NCBI RefSeq assembly: GCF_000421465.1 | Contig: NZ_ATXB01000001.1 | Span: 1,798,001-1,862,000 of the forward strand | Length of the DNA: 64,000 nt | From: Methylohalobius crimeensis 10Ki | Lineage (GTDB): Bacteria > Pseudomonadota > Gammaproteobacteria > Methylococcales > Methylothermaceae | Direction: 5' to 3' | In this document: piece after piece, positions 22,755-40,918 of the stretch | How the letters are laid out: every line of letters starts with the position of its first letter | Numbering within the stretch: the stretch's first letter is position 1 | Position numbers and translations under genes: made by a program | The notes under the pieces: model-generated | Database searches by the model: none | Told to the model about the DNA's origin: nothing | The model's input: only the letters and a program-made list of their open reading frames with translations

Positions 22755-22806
22755 ACCAATCTCCTTGCTTCACATCAGGGACGAAATCAGGAGGCGGGGA
22801 GTACGG

Positions 22807-22902
22807 GTCGGGGGGAACGCTCCGGGACACGCGGTAAATACCTCCCTGTACGCTCGATCGCAGCATCCTTGCTGCGATCGGTCCCGGAGCGTTCCCCCCG
22901 AC
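22807..22902. repeat. Nested palindromic repeat, copy 1 (ureD-ureA gap)
   Basis: Perfect 22-bp arms (22807-22828 and 22881-22902) enclose a core, GCGGTAAATACCTCCCTG then TACGCTC, and an inner hairpin GATCGCAGCA-TCCT-TGCTGCGATC (22856-22879). The core pattern is shared with copies at 28,302 and 40,790, while the long arms differ completely in sequence. It may fold in the ure mRNA between ureD and ureA. Confidence 0.85.
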
Positions 22903-22941
22903 TCTCCTTTTCAACTTCTGCAGCTTCGACATCAAACCGGC

Positions 22942-26378: not shown

Positions 26379-27215
26379 TCATTCTCCCAAGTAAACCTCG
26401 ATCACTCTCGGATCGGCCTGCACCTGATCCATTCGGCCCTCGGCGAGTACCCTGCCCTCGTGCAGGACGGTCACCCGCCGGGCGATGGCGCGCACGAATT
26501 CCATGTCGTGCTCCACCACGATCACCGAATGCGCGCCCGCCAGCGAGTTCAGCAGATCCGCCGTCCGCTCGATTTCCTGCTGGGTCATCCCCGCCACCGG
26601 TTCGTCGAGCAAAAGTACCCGCGGATTCTGCGCCAGCAGCATGCCGATCTCCAACCACTGTTTCTGGCCGTGGGAAAGCGCGCCCGCGAAGCGATCCCTC
26701 GCGTCCTCCAATCCCACCGTCTCGAGCACTTCATGGATGCGGTCCCGCTGGGCAGCGGTCAGGCGTGCCAGCAGAGTGGGCCACACCCGCTTGTCGGTCT
26801 TGAGAGAAAGGTGCAGGTTTTCCCAGACCGTATGCTCGGGAAAGACGGAAGGCTTTTGAAACTTGCGCCCGATGCCCGCCGCGGCGATTTCCGGTTCGCT
26901 CATCCGGCTCAGATCCAGGGTTTGGCCGAAATAGGCCGAACCGGACACCGGCCGGGTCTTGCCCGTCATCACGTCCATCATGGTGGTCTTGCCCGCCCCG
27001 TTGGGGCCGATGATGCAGCGCAGCTCGCCGTCGTCCACGTACAGGCTCAATCCATCCAGCGCCTTGAAACCGTCGAAGCTCACGGTCACGTCATCCAGAT
27101 ACAATATCGGGCCGTGACTGGTATCGATCTCCCCCGGAATGACCGGATGACTGCGTACAGCGACGAAGTCGAAGACGCGATCGCGCCGAAAAAAATCCTG
27201 CATCGCACTGTTCAT
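26379..27215 (-). CDS. urtD: Urea ABC transporter ATPase UrtD
   Basis: The 278-residue LivG-type ATPase has Walker A GPNGAGKTTMMDVMTG, signature LSHGQKQWLEIGMLLAQ and Walker B VLLLDEPVAGMTQQE. An N-terminal extension of about 38 residues precedes the ABC core. ATG 27215 overlaps the urtC stop by 4 bp. Confidence 0.95.
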   Translation of the reverse strand: MNSAMQDFFRRDRVFDFVAVRSHPVIPGEIDTSHGPILYLDDVTVSFDGFKALDGLSLYVDDGELRCIIGPNGAGKTTMMDVMTGKTRPVSGSAYFGQTLDLSRMSEPEIAAAGIGRKFQKPSVFPEHTVWENLHLSLKTDKRVWPTLLARLTAAQRDRIHEVLETVGLEDARDRFAGALSHGQKQWLEIGMLLAQNPRVLLLDEPVAGMTQQEIERTADLLNSLAGAHSVIVVEHDMEFVRAIARRVTVLHEGRVLAEGRMDQVQADPRVIEVYLGE

Positions 27216-28501
27216 GAGGTTTCCCTCGCCGCTCGATTCCGTTCGATCAATCCCACCAGGCCGCGTGGAAGATACAAGGTGACGACCACGAACAGCGCCC
27301 CCAGGGCGAACAGCCATATTTCGGGCAACGCCGCGGTCAGGTAGGTCTTGGCGTAGTTGACCAGAAACGCGCCGAAGGCGGCGCCGTAGAGAGTCCCCCG
27401 ACCGCCCACGGCAACCCAGATCACCAGTTCGATGGAGTTGAGGGGCGAGAACTCGTTGGGGTTGATGATCCCCACCTGGGGAACGTACAGCGCGCCGGCG
27501 ATTCCGGCCAACATCGCCGAGAGGACGAACATCCACAGTTTGTAATGCTCGACCCGGTAACCCAAAAACCGCGCCCGGTCCTCGCTGTCCCGAATCGCCA
27601 CCACCACCCGGCCGAGCTTGGTGGTGACCACCCAGCGCGTCAGCACATATCCCCCCGCCAGGGCGACGGCGCTCGCCAGAAACAGACCGACGCGGGTCGC
27701 ATCTTCCTGAAGACTGAATCCCAGAATATCCTTAAAGTCGGTGAGGCCGTTGTTTCCTCCGAAGCCCATTTCATTCCGGTAGAAAGCCAGCATCAAGGCG
27801 TAGGTCATGGCCTGGGTAATAATCGAGAGATAGACCCCGGTGACCCGCGAACGAAAGGCGAACCAGCCGAAGCAAAAGGCGAGCAATCCCGGAACCAGCA
27901 TCACCATCACGATGGCAAACCAGAAATGGTCGAAGCCGTACCAATACCACGGCAATTCCTTCCAATTCAGGAACACCATGAAATCGGGCAGTATCGGATT
28001 TCCGTAGACACCGCGCGAACCGATCTGGCGCATCAGGTACATGCCCATGGCGTAGCCGCCCAGGGCGAAGAAGGCGCCGTGCCCCAGACTCAAGATGCCC
28101 ACCGCACCCCAGACCAGATCCAGCGCCAGGGCGAGCAAGGCGTAGCACAGATACTTGCCCAACAAGGTCACCGTGTAGGTGGACAGATGCAGGCCCGACC
28201 CCTCGGGCACGATCAGATTCAATACCGGCACCGCCACCGTCATCAGGGCGAGCACCGCCAGCATAATCAAGCCACCGCGATCGGCGGCGAAACGGTGAAT
28301 AAGAGGCTGTTTCCAAACACCCCTTGACGCCCTAGTAGGAGAAGCCGGGGGATTGCCTTCAGGGACGCCTTGAACCCTTCCCTGGGGGCTCGAATCGCGA
28401 CCATCCCGGTCGCGAACGCCCTTCAGGCAATCCCCCGGCTTCTCCTCCAATATGGGAAAGCGAGTTTGTAAACAGTCTCTAAGCACGTCGAATCCCTGCA
28501 T
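27212..28501 (-). CDS. urtC: Urea permease UrtC with repeat-derived N-terminal extension
   Basis: The 429-residue protein has normal LivM/UrtC sequence from about residue 63 (WKQPLIHRF) with 9-10 membrane segments, including LDLVWGAVGILSLGHGAFFA and AVGGRGTLYGAAFGAFLVN. Residues from about 9 to 62 are encoded by a nested palindromic element inserted after the first codons. ATG 28501 has GGAGG 8 bases upstream and lies 3 bp after the urtB stop, so it is the natural start; the next in-frame ATG would remove the first membrane segment. Whether the extension is tolerated or processed is unknown. Confidence 0.9.
   Translation of the reverse strand: MQGFDVLRDCLQTRFPILEEKPGDCLKGVRDRDGRDSSPQGRVQGVPEGNPPASPTRASRGVWKQPLIHRFAADRGGLIMLAVLALMTVAVPVLNLIVPEGSGLHLSTYTVTLLGKYLCYALLALALDLVWGAVGILSLGHGAFFALGGYAMGMYLMRQIGSRGVYGNPILPDFMVFLNWKELPWYWYGFDHFWFAIVMVMLVPGLLAFCFGWFAFRSRVTGVYLSIITQAMTYALMLAFYRNEMGFGGNNGLTDFKDILGFSLQEDATRVGLFLASAVALAGGYVLTRWVVTTKLGRVVVAIRDSEDRARFLGYRVEHYKLWMFVLSAMLAGIAGALYVPQVGIINPNEFSPLNSIELVIWVAVGGRGTLYGAAFGAFLVNYAKTYLTAALPEIWLFALGALFVVVTLYLPRGLVGLIERNRAARETS
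28302..28480. repeat. Nested palindromic repeat, copy 2, inside urtC
   Basis: Three nested inverted repeats share one centre: outer 17-bp arms (28302-28318 and 28464-28480, 15 of 17 paired), perfect 21-bp arms (28338-28358 and 28425-28445), and the inner hairpin TCGCGACC-ATCCC-GGTCGCGA. The core GACGCCTTGAACCCTTCCCT then GGGGGCTCGA matches copies 1 and 3. No stop codon occurs in the urtC frame. Confidence 0.88.
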
Positions 28502-28504
28502 GAC

Positions 28505-30172
28505 TCAATCCTCCGCCGAACGTCCACGTTGAGGAAATAAACCGCGCGGATGCTTTTGCATGAACAGAATGATGAACACGAGCACCAGGATCTTGGCCAT
28601 CACCGCCCCCGCCCAAGGCTCCAGCAGCTTGTTGACCAGCCCCAGTCCCAACGCGCCGACCAGGGTTCCCCAGAGGTTTCCCACCCCGCCGAACACCACC
28701 ACCATGAAGGAATCGATGATGTAGGACTGGCCCAGATTGGGACCCACATTGGTCAATTGACTCAAGGCCACGCCCGCCACCCCGGCGATCCCCGATCCGA
28801 GACCGAAGGTGGCGGCGTCCACCCAGTTGCTGCGAATGCCGATGGCGCGGGCCATGGCGCGGTTTTGTGACACGGCGCGTATTTGGAGGCCGAAATCGGT
28901 TTGCCTGAGAATCAAGAACAGCGCCGCGAAGACCAACAGAGAAAAGGCGAGGATGTAGAGCCGGTTGTAGGTCAGGAAAAGCGCCGCGTTGACTTCCCAC
29001 GCCCCGCTCATCCAGGCGGGGTTTTCGACCGCCACGTTTTGCGCCGAAATCAAGGTGCGCACCAGCTGCTGCAGCAGCAGGCTGATGCCGAAGGTAGCGA
29101 GCAGCGTCTCCAGGGGCCGTCCGTAGAGGTAGCGGATGACGCCCCGTTCGACGGCGATTCCCATCAATCCGGATACCACGAAAGCGGCCGGAATGGCGAC
29201 GATCACCGAAGCGTCGATCCAGCCGGGCATCAACTGCTGGACCAGATAAGTCGTATACGCGCCCAGCATCATCATTTCACCGTGGGCCATGTTGATCACC
29301 CCCATGACCCCGAAGGTGATGGCCAGGCCGATGGCCGACAACAGCAGCACCGATCCCAGGCTCAAACCGAAAAAACCGGTCTGCACCATGGCGTACATTT
29401 CCAGGCGCTGATTGATGGCCGCCAGGGCTTTCCGGGCGGCGGCACGTACTTTCGCGCTGGCCTCGCGGGGAGACCCGTCGAGGTTCGACTCGAGCAACTG
29501 CTTCAAGCGGTTGCGCACGGTTCGATTGACGCTGCGGGATAAGGTATCCACCGCCGCCAGGCGCCGATTCTCGTCGCCGCTGTCCAAAGCCTCCAGGGCC
29601 AGGCCGGTGTCGATCGCCTCGAGCACTTCGGGATGCCTTTCGGTTTCCCGCATGTCCCTGAGCAGCTTGGCATCCCCGGGGGAAAGGCGATCGAACATTT
29701 CCTCCACCGCCGCCAGGCGGACGCCGGCGTTTTCGCTGGCGAGACTCAGCCGGGCGATCGCATCGCGAAGAATCACACGCATCTGGTTGTTGATGATGAT
29801 CTTGGACAGACCTTTTTTGTCCCCGCTGCCGAGGGATTCGCCGGTGACGGCGTCATAAATCGCGTATTCCGCGTCCCGGGACCGCAAAATCAATACCTGC
29901 CGGCCGATCTTGCGGTAATACAGGTCCCCTTCGAGCAGGGCCTTCATGACCGGAAGCACGCGGGGATGGTCGACCGCGGCGAGGTTCTTGACCGCCGCCT
30001 TCTTCTGGCTGAAGCTTCTCACGGTGAGCCCTTCGAGCACCTTTCCCAGGGTTGCCTGTCCGGACGTCGGGTCCGCCGCTTGCGCGGTCAGAATCGCCAG
30101 CATGAGCACCCATCCCAAGCCGATTGGGAACGAACGATGCCAAGGATGATGATGGAAATTGACTGTCTGCAT
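28505..30172 (-). CDS. urtB: Urea permease UrtB
   Basis: The 555-residue protein has a signal-like N-terminus, about 240 residues of periplasmic HEAT-like sequence typical of UrtB, and a LivH-type membrane domain (LAITFGVMGVINMAHGEMMM, FGISLLLQQLVRTLISAQNV, VFGGVGNLWGTLVGALGLG). With UrtC it forms the urea channel of the ABC importer. urtC follows after 3 bp. Confidence 0.95.
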   Translation of the reverse strand: MQTVNFHHHPWHRSFPIGLGWVLMLAILTAQAADPTSGQATLGKVLEGLTVRSFSQKKAAVKNLAAVDHPRVLPVMKALLEGDLYYRKIGRQVLILRSRDAEYAIYDAVTGESLGSGDKKGLSKIIINNQMRVILRDAIARLSLASENAGVRLAAVEEMFDRLSPGDAKLLRDMRETERHPEVLEAIDTGLALEALDSGDENRRLAAVDTLSRSVNRTVRNRLKQLLESNLDGSPREASAKVRAAARKALAAINQRLEMYAMVQTGFFGLSLGSVLLLSAIGLAITFGVMGVINMAHGEMMMLGAYTTYLVQQLMPGWIDASVIVAIPAAFVVSGLMGIAVERGVIRYLYGRPLETLLATFGISLLLQQLVRTLISAQNVAVENPAWMSGAWEVNAALFLTYNRLYILAFSLLVFAALFLILRQTDFGLQIRAVSQNRAMARAIGIRSNWVDAATFGLGSGIAGVAGVALSQLTNVGPNLGQSYIIDSFMVVVFGGVGNLWGTLVGALGLGLVNKLLEPWAGAVMAKILVLVFIILFMQKHPRGLFPQRGRSAED

Positions 30173-30404
30173 GGATTTTCCCGGTTAATCTGTCGGTGTA
30201 ACCCCTTCGCTTTTCCTGAACGGGGCAGGCACAAGGGAAGGGCCCGCCCCTATATGCGTGATGGGGGGCAAACCATCCCTCGCCCGTAGGGGCAACCGAT
30301 CCGCTGTCCGACGAGGATGCGCCGTTTGCGGTAAACCATCCCGTCCGTAGGGGCAACCCTCCGTGGTTGCCCTGAACGTGGGCAGGCACAGGGGCCTGCC
30401 CCTA
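30173..30404. repeat. Gap between urtA and urtB filled with short GC-rich repeats
   Basis: No gene is seen. The motif CGTAGGGGCAACC appears at about 30,284 and 30,341. GGGCAGGCACAGGGGCCTGC at 30,380 and a partial copy near 30,223 can pair within themselves. Such repeats often lie after binding-protein genes and may uncouple urtA expression from urtBCDE. Confidence 0.6.
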
Positions 30405-31706
30405 CTAATAGTTCTGGCCCGAGCACTGGCCCGATTTCACGTTGTAATTACCGCACCCCAGCGGAGCGCGCCAATCGGAGATCAAATCCTTGCTGTCGGA
30501 GAGATAATCGGACCAGGCGTCCCCGGGCACTTCGGCGGGGGTTTGCCAAACCACCGCGAACTGGCCGTTGTCTTGAATCTCTCCGATCAACACGGGCTTA
30601 GTGATGTGGTGGTTGGGCATCATCGCCGCGTAACCGCCGGACAGATTGGGCGCGACCACGCCGACCATCGAATCGACCACCGCCTCGGGATCGGCGGTAC
30701 CGGCCTTTTCCACCGCTTTCACCCACATGTTGAAGCCGATGTAATGGGCCTCCATGGGATCGTTGGTCACCCGTTTTTCATTCTTGACGAAGCGATGCCA
30801 TTGGGAAATGAATTCCTCGTTGGCCGGCGTGTCCACGCTCATGAAGTAATTCCAGGCCGCCATATGGCCCAGCAGGGGCTTGGTATCGATGCCCGACAGT
30901 TCTTCCTCGCCCACGGAAAACGCCACCACCGGAATATCCTCGGCGGACATGCCCTGGTTGGCGAGTTCCTTGTAGAACGGCACATTGGCGTCGCCGTTGA
31001 TGGTGGAAACCACCGCGGTTTTCTTGCCCGCAGCGCCGAATTGCTTGATCCGGGCCACTTCGGACTGCCAATCGGAGAACCCGAACGGCGTGTAATTGAC
31101 GATGATGTCATCCGCCTTGACGCCTTTGGATTTGAGATAGGCCGCCAGGATTTTATTGGTGGTGCGAGGATAGACGTAATCGGTGCCTTCCAGGACCCAG
31201 CGTTTCACCCCGAGTTCGTTCATCAGATAGTCCACCGCGGGAATCGCCTGCTGATTGGGGGCGGCGCCGGTATAGAAGACGTACCGGGAGGACTCCTCGC
31301 CCTCGTACTGGACCGGATAGAACAGCGGCACCTCGAGTTCTTCCACCACCGGCAGCACCGACTTGCGCGAGACCGAGGTCCAGCAGCCGAAGATCGCCGC
31401 CACTTTTTCCTTTTCGATCAACTCGCGCGCCTTCTCGGCGAACAGGGGCCAGTTGGAGGCGGGGTCCACCACCACCGGTTCGATCTTCTTGCCCAGAACC
31501 CCGCCTTTTTTGTTCTGTTCCTCGATCAGCATCAACATCGCATCTTTGAGGGTGGTCTCGGAAATCGCCATGGTTCCCGACAGGGAGTGAAGGATCCCCA
31601 CTTTAATCGTTTCTCCGGCGACCGCTGCGGGTCCGGAAGCCATCAATGCCCAGGACAGGCCAAAAACCAACCAACTCGGCAACAAATATTTACTTAAGGT
31701 CTTCAT
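30405..31706 (-). CDS. urtA: Urea-binding protein UrtA
   Basis: The 433-residue periplasmic protein has a signal peptide (cleavage likely after AVA) and the UrtA core: IKVGILHSLSGTMAISE, IFGCWTSVSRKSVLPV, EGTDYVYPRTTNKI and DPMEAHYIGFNMWVKA. It binds urea and delivers it to UrtBC. GAGGAAA precedes ATG 31706. Only 35 bp separate it from the porin gene, so the two are probably cotranscribed. Confidence 0.96.
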   Translation of the reverse strand: MKTLSKYLLPSWLVFGLSWALMASGPAAVAGETIKVGILHSLSGTMAISETTLKDAMLMLIEEQNKKGGVLGKKIEPVVVDPASNWPLFAEKARELIEKEKVAAIFGCWTSVSRKSVLPVVEELEVPLFYPVQYEGEESSRYVFYTGAAPNQQAIPAVDYLMNELGVKRWVLEGTDYVYPRTTNKILAAYLKSKGVKADDIIVNYTPFGFSDWQSEVARIKQFGAAGKKTAVVSTINGDANVPFYKELANQGMSAEDIPVVAFSVGEEELSGIDTKPLLGHMAAWNYFMSVDTPANEEFISQWHRFVKNEKRVTNDPMEAHYIGFNMWVKAVEKAGTADPEAVVDSMVGVVAPNLSGGYAAMMPNHHITKPVLIGEIQDNGQFAVVWQTPAEVPGDAWSDYLSDSKDLISDWRAPLGCGNYNVKSGQCSGQNY

Positions 31707-40707: not shown

Positions 40708-40789
40708 CGGCACACCTCCCGCGGATTGCTTTATGCCACTTTACACTGAAAACGGGAACATTAAAACGATTCTTATAGGCATGGGTATT

Positions 40790-40890
40790 GGCGTGGTGCA
40801 AGGCTTGCGGGGAACGCCGTGGACCCTTCCTTGGGGGCTTGATGGCGACCATCCGGGTCGCCAACATCCCCGCAAGCCTTACCCCACACC
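40790..40890. repeat. Nested palindromic repeat, copy 3
   Basis: Arms AAGGCTTGCGGGGA (40800-40813) and its complement (40867-40880), extended by partly paired flanks, enclose the core GCCGTGGACCCTTCCTTGGG then GGCTTGA and the hairpin GGCGACC-ATCCG-GGTCGCC. It is the same core as copies 1 and 2. It lies between the nuclease promoter and the carboxypeptidase 3' end. Confidence 0.85.
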
Positions 40891-40918
40891 TTTGAACTCG
40901 GAATGACTCAAGAAGCGT

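Follow-up and report, generated by a model that had tools for sequence, protein, structure and literature searches.

In Rickettsia, palindromic elements (RPE) are ~150-bp palindromes with many copies in one genus, several of which are described as lying in frame in unrelated genes (PMC10969869, PMC2229807). RPE are also described as losing their repeat identity over time (PMC6649704). Translated MITEs are already known as well (PMC10969869, PMC2229807, PMC5896051). In-frame fusions are reported for ERIC/RU-1, YPAL/RU-2, and Correia (PMC2229807), and for the MITEs QMITE1/2 of Coxiella (PMC5896051). REP/RAYT palindromes are likewise abundant in bacteria, with some copies in genes, and the REPs measure 20-40 bp (PMC3733652). 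In yeast, template switching between inverted repeats homogenised the arms and inverted the spacer in coding DNA (PMC8604942). In Nematomorpha mitochondria, long inverted repeats are kept in translated genes, for which template switching was proposed (PMC6649704).

Here, we analyzed a stretch of DNA of 64,000 nucleotides (the window), in which a palindromic element lies in frame inside urtC. The preliminary description compared this repeat with the Rickettsia elements, and the analogy proved apt, since several copies lie in frame in unrelated conserved genes here too (urtC, glycosyltransferase, comF, lhr, hydrogenase protease, and CusA), and the urtC family likewise consists of multi-copy palindromes in frame in unrelated genes of one genus. 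In this sense, the urtC family works like the Rickettsia palindromic elements. However, it belongs to another bacterial class and has a TTA-type duplication and a conserved two-hairpin core; going by the descriptions, it is also set apart by continued covariation between its arms and by inversion of its loop. The family resembles ERIC/RU-1, YPAL/RU-2, Correia, and QMITE1/2 in being short, non-autonomous, and stop-free in some frames, with gene fusions, some of theirs being reported as conserved. The repeats differ by description, and here several copies sit within conserved enzymes for which congeners lacking the insert provide a control. It is not a REP, since the element measures 177 bp instead of 20-40 bp and contains a two-hairpin core. 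In the yeast case, no more than five adjacent residues of a gene are involved, whereas the urtC family involves the 66-nt loop of a mobile element in a bacterium. In Nematomorpha, both arms encode conserved native protein, whereas the palindrome here is an added segment. A search of open-access literature, by topic and by sequence words, found no description of the urtC element family.

We give a probability of about 0.86 to the reading that a MITE-like selfish element inserted in urtC, is translated as a tolerated segment, and has been reshaped by template switching.

The element in urtC and its family

The urtC gene for the urea ABC transporter permease is located at 27212..28501 on the minus strand (stop included) and encodes 429 aa including the insert, as assigned by TIGR03408 and the open reading frame (ORF). 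As read from the DNA itself, the inserted palindromic element occupies 28303..28479 on the minus strand and is stop-free in the urtC frame. It is flanked by a TTA target-site duplication, with one copy on the start-codon side (28480..28482) and the other on the far side (28300..28302), both on the minus strand. The insertion point follows codon 7 of urtC, between MQGFDVL and IHRFAADRGG. The element plus one TTA makes 180 bp, that is, 60 codons with no stop in the urtC frame. Of the six frames across the element's full length, one is stop-free. Thus, the urtC frame stays open because the element plus its duplication is a multiple of three and this one frame has no stop.

A pattern search identified the terminal inverted repeats GAGACTGTTTACAAAC at 28464..28479 (minus strand) and GAGGCTGTTTCCAAAC at 28303..28318 (plus strand), and both element ends gave an exact match to GAGRCTGTTTNCAAAC. 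With up to two mismatches, this pattern had no match in the window beyond the element ends, and 3 of 100 shuffles also reached two matches. Further inside, palindrome arm 1 (28 nt, 28419..28446, minus strand) is 93% complementary to arm 2 (28337..28364, minus strand). The structured core at 28340..28443 (minus strand) is composed of 19-bp arms (28425-28443 and 28340-28358) flanking a 66-nt loop (28359-28424) that contains two small hairpins. It was the best match of the genome to covariance model R1 (118 bits) and is itself one of the 26 cores from which this model was built. The RNA of 28300-28504 folded at -113.1 kcal/mol compared with a mean of -74.8 (sd 4.8) for shuffles, giving a z of -8.0, and 0 of 200 shuffles folded as low.

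The preliminary description had placed a palindromic repeat at 28302-28501, ahead of the native start of urtC and without a stop in its frame. The repeat, its open frame, and its place at the UrtC N-terminus were all recovered, whereas its bounds were narrower, and it follows the first seven native codons instead of preceding them. The added N-terminal residues also stood, although they amount to 60 codons and not about 55. In contrast, the permease does not otherwise start at WKQPLIHR; since WKQPL is encoded by the element, the native start of UrtC is not at this site.

DNA similarity returned 24 rows in the window's own genome, including the query's place and partial rows, and the family elements end in the sequence form GAGRCTGTTTNCAAA. 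We then aligned the 26 cores, taken from this genome and its congeners, to construct the covariance model. In this alignment, all 19 pairs of the outer stem changed on both sides, and 94.8% of the cells pair. The covariation score was 0.614, while shuffles scored 0.170 and slid versions 0.105-0.135. The core was more conserved (mean pairwise identity 0.82) than the arms (0.44). Among the best 150 or fewer candidates scored per genome, the model identified at least 49 copies in the own genome, at least 77 in G002, 36 in G003, 80 in G005, and 46 in G009, and at least 2 to 7 in four other congeners, that is, nine of the ten genomes of the genus; G001 showed no match to the model. The element is, as in a MITE, short (177 bp), dispersed, and devoid of a transposase gene. 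In the class, with the best 21 or fewer candidates scored per genome, the model matched at E 1e-5 in at least 27 of 185 genomes including the own one (at least 26 of 184 others). A plain DNA search at E 1e-8, restricted to the best two or fewer candidates per genome, matched at least 5 of 301 genomes of the order, all within the genus, and at E 1e-6 it matched 6 of the 10 genomes of the genus. No DNA similar to the element was found in the plasmid and phage collections. Membership in an Rfam family was rejected, as the four matches in window 28000-28800 all scored far below the gathering scores.

Two more family copies were observed in the window by model match, both on the minus strand. One is at 22804-22905 (C1:1820804-1820905), and the other is at 40789-40891 (C1:1838789-1838891), followed by a different small palindrome, CTTCTCCCGCTGGCGGGAGAAG.

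Of 19 own copies delimited by eye, 8 had identical 3-bp flanks, and six of these flanks were TTA or TAA. Within IS5, the IS1031 group typically makes 3-bp duplications with the form TNA. At the 27 PF01609 places of the genome, no pair of element ends bounding a transposase, as expected of an autonomous partner, was detected. On the favoured reading, a non-autonomous, MITE-like palindrome inserted at TTA after urtC codon 7 and duplicated its target, and a transposase acting in trans, perhaps since lost, would move such elements. Separately, two copies of one IS (461-aa ORF, ends AGCTCGACTTTCCCC) adjoin the ends of two family elements, at L358 and L363 (regions C1:201713 and C1:2674183). An element-like start follows the IS at L363, and the IS copies are placed as if the element end were a preferred target.

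Alternatively, the core palindrome might have grown by template switching in a pre-existing small inverted repeat, the terminal repeats being those of an older carrier MITE. Many congener copies and some own copies lack recognisable terminal repeats, as read by eye, since the palindrome-extension script was too permissive to define element ends and its results were used in this way only. The arms also differ among copies and yet pair, and some cores harbour further palindromes; the loops of L071, L012, L018, L020, and L285 contain a second palindrome of a different kind (CCCTCCCTTGCCCTCCCCCC and similar). However, the whole urtC unit, terminal repeats included, is bounded by TTA and absent from the congener. 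We therefore consider growth of the core in place unlikely, though the most credible of the alternatives to insertion of a complete MITE-like element.

Copies inside other genes

The gene context was surveyed for 127 copies, comprising all 49 in the own genome, 26 of 36 in G003, 34 of 46 in G009, and 18 of 77 in G002; from G004 to G008, only lhr was inspected. A codon-usage test on both flanks placed four of the 127 copies inside coding frames: a glycosyltransferase of the own genome, lhr of G003, and, in G009, both lhr and an RND transporter. Inspection together with family matches added urtC, comF, a hydrogenase maturation protease, and a ketosynthase, of which the latter three failed the codon-usage test on the left flank. 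Thus, 8 of the 127 copies are in genes, five of them in the window's genome, and the other 119 have no demonstrated gene context; the family apparently lies mostly outside genes. L020, with 28 matched bases and no Pfam domain, is a possible further in-gene copy.

In the glycosyltransferase (TIGR03087), the insert of 64 residues was absent from seven aligned congener proteins, one of which (G005) is broken by Ns, and two congeners gave no match. The comF insert of about 55 residues was absent from eight aligned congener proteins, with no true comF match in G005. In the ComF protein, DZR_2 covers 22-68 and the GntX model 124-295. In CusA/CzcA of G009, the PF00873 match runs end to end (2-1033) across the insert. 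TIGR00072 matched the hydrogenase protease in two passing stretches, one of which covers 123-231. The lhr helicase gene has the in-frame insert in 7 of 10 species, only a remnant being left in G004 and G007, and no insert is present in G001, G002, and G006. In lhr of the own genome, a second palindrome is nested in the insert. A 53-bp remnant of the element was also found in TreZ.

The ketosynthase ORF (NF006618 end to end) reads across the element and reaches a second ketosynthase domain. This fusion, at L284 569-2887 on the minus strand, forms one frame of 773 codons, and a further family copy (C2:355134) is located near its far end. Of 762 frames over the family copies, 528 were open, whereas 200 shuffles averaged 420 (sd 12); given the kinship among the copies, this excess is not taken as proof.

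Loop orientation and arm changes at orthologous sites

Next, the copies of G003 and G009, which share 91% identity over the lhr query, were compared site by site. Both flanks matched at 22 sites, two of which were dropped as cross-matches between tandem neighbours. The loop had opposite orientations at 7 of the 20 remaining orthologous sites, including one inside lhr. Therefore, the loop occurs in both orientations at the same site between species, as in an inverton. At five of the seven sites, at least 13 of the 19 arm positions on each side are identical, and since the arms still match, inversion in place is the simplest reading there. The remaining two share 9-12 of 19 arm positions, and replacement instead of inversion is possible. 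An assembly artefact may also be behind some of the flips.

The 20 sites provide 380 arm pairs, of which 288 were unchanged, 43 had changed on one side, 45 showed paired double changes, and 4 showed unpaired double changes. Four sites whose arms match at 12 or fewer of 19 positions supply 28 of the 45 paired double changes, and the arms may have been replaced wholesale there. At the other 16 sites (304 pairs), 17 double changes kept the pairing, 3 lost it, and 35 pairs had changed on one side. We infer, by analogy with the described cases, that template switching between the arms causes both arm homogenisation and loop inversion; polymerase switching of this kind would keep the arms complementary and occasionally invert the loop. 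When the loop was flipped by script, the host frame remained open to its usual end in all eight in-gene copies, and an inverted loop would accordingly leave the frame open in the copies tested.

A dedicated recombinase might instead invert the loop, making it an intragenic inverton. For two closely related species, 7 inverted sites out of 20 is a high proportion, and the better conservation of the core than of the arms (0.82 against 0.44 mean identity) would suit such an enzyme. Nevertheless, the arms are not conserved in sequence, and homogenised arms are what template switching predicts, so we regard a recombinase as improbable and favour template switching between the arms. A more far-reaching proposal is that the family is coding-neutral either way, that is, its loop is stop-free when flipped and keeps flipping within conserved genes without breaking them; we hold this to be doubtful.

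The added segment of UrtC and what it means

Directly upstream of urtC, urtB is located at 28505..30172 on the minus strand (TIGR03409, 426.3 bits; ORF), and 3 nt separate its stop codon from the urtC ATG at 28501. Further upstream of urtB, another repeat-like stretch (GGGCAGGCCCCTGTGCCTGCCC, GGTTGCCCCTACGG) was observed at window 30210-30420. A GGAGG ribosome-binding site is present at 28510..28514 (minus strand), 8 nt ahead of ATG 28501, and the start-codon table lists it as the only well-placed ribosome site of urtC, ahead of the palindromic element. The ribosome site, frame, and operon spacing are hence as the preliminary description claimed for a start at 28501, before the repeat. Translation from this original start would add a 60-residue segment before the first transmembrane helix. 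The hairpin and the added tail may both influence expression, as the preliminary description expected.

We then measured the distance from candidate start codons to a conserved anchor (LALDLVWG...) in 107 UrtC genes, with the window's own included. The sample combined 27 order relatives (27 of the 28 matches above the cut-off) and 80 loci kept out of 574, and it counts at least one genome twice (L028 and L151 are one contig). An ATG or GTG was present 50-86 residues ahead of the anchor in all 106 other genes. The UrtC start of the window is 124 residues ahead of the anchor, a distance that falls to 64 when the 60 codons of the insert are discounted. The open frame of 89 of the other genes spans fewer than 110 residues and could not accommodate such an extension; for the remaining 17, frame length alone excludes no extension because the open frame is longer. 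In an alignment of 31 UrtC proteins with starts chosen by the analyst, the insert was a gap in all 30 others. The comparison of N-termini among relatives that had been proposed for this gene thus supports an insertion, and an unrelated extension throughout UrtC, which would have spoken against it, was not borne out, as all 106 other genes have a start in the usual place. G002 is the only congener with UrtC, and its protein counts 17 residues through DRGG, the same number as the window's UrtC minus the insert. Among the UrtC genes examined, no other genome showed the urtC insertion.

In the AlphaFold2 model, pLDDT was below 50 at UrtC residues 1-12, 14-37, and 39-42. The ten-residue mean was 43-71 over residues 1-70, rising to 83-96 across residues 71-150, and some loops further on scored low again. 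The inserted 60-residue segment ahead of the first transmembrane helix is predicted to be probably disordered, where the low pLDDT counts as weak evidence because a low score is expected for any unaligned segment.

Translation could alternatively start after the repeat, at TTG 28270 or ATG 28264, which are in frame and just ahead of the first transmembrane helix. In that case, the repeat would be an untranslated leader hairpin and UrtC would have lost its first residues; the -113 kcal/mol hairpin does separate the ribosome site from these codons. However, the start-codon scan showed no ribosome site at either the TTG or the ATG (28262..28264, minus strand), in contrast to the GGAGG at 8 nt from ATG 28501. 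Moreover, the copies in glycosyltransferase, comF, lhr, and CusA lie deep in their genes and are not bypassable in this way. A start after the repeat, which the preliminary description had named as counter-evidence, is consequently very unlikely. Least likely of all is that urtC is out of use and the insertion marks early gene decay: a UrtC match in only G000, the own genome, and G002 of the ten genus genomes makes urtC dispensable in the genus, but the rest of UrtC is undamaged (TIGR03408 over residues 104-418 at 452.5 bits, where the cut-off is 296.2), as is the urtB ORF, and the insert preserves the frame without introducing a stop.

The reading of a tolerated, translated MITE-like insertion has consequences beyond urtC. 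Protein-coding palindromes are best known from Rickettsia, and the same outcome is reached here in another group (the order is probably Methylococcales) with a different element. Gene by gene, the insert-free congeners serve as built-in controls. For annotation, start codons and seemingly additional stretches of such genes can derive from the element. The inversions at orthologous sites and the paired arm changes constitute a natural experiment on bacterial template switching, and one of these inversions lies in a conserved helicase gene. If the loop is indeed coding-neutral in both orientations, flips would swap a peptide of ~20 residues in enzymes such as Lhr, and if flips occur within populations, they would be intragenic invertons made from a selfish element.
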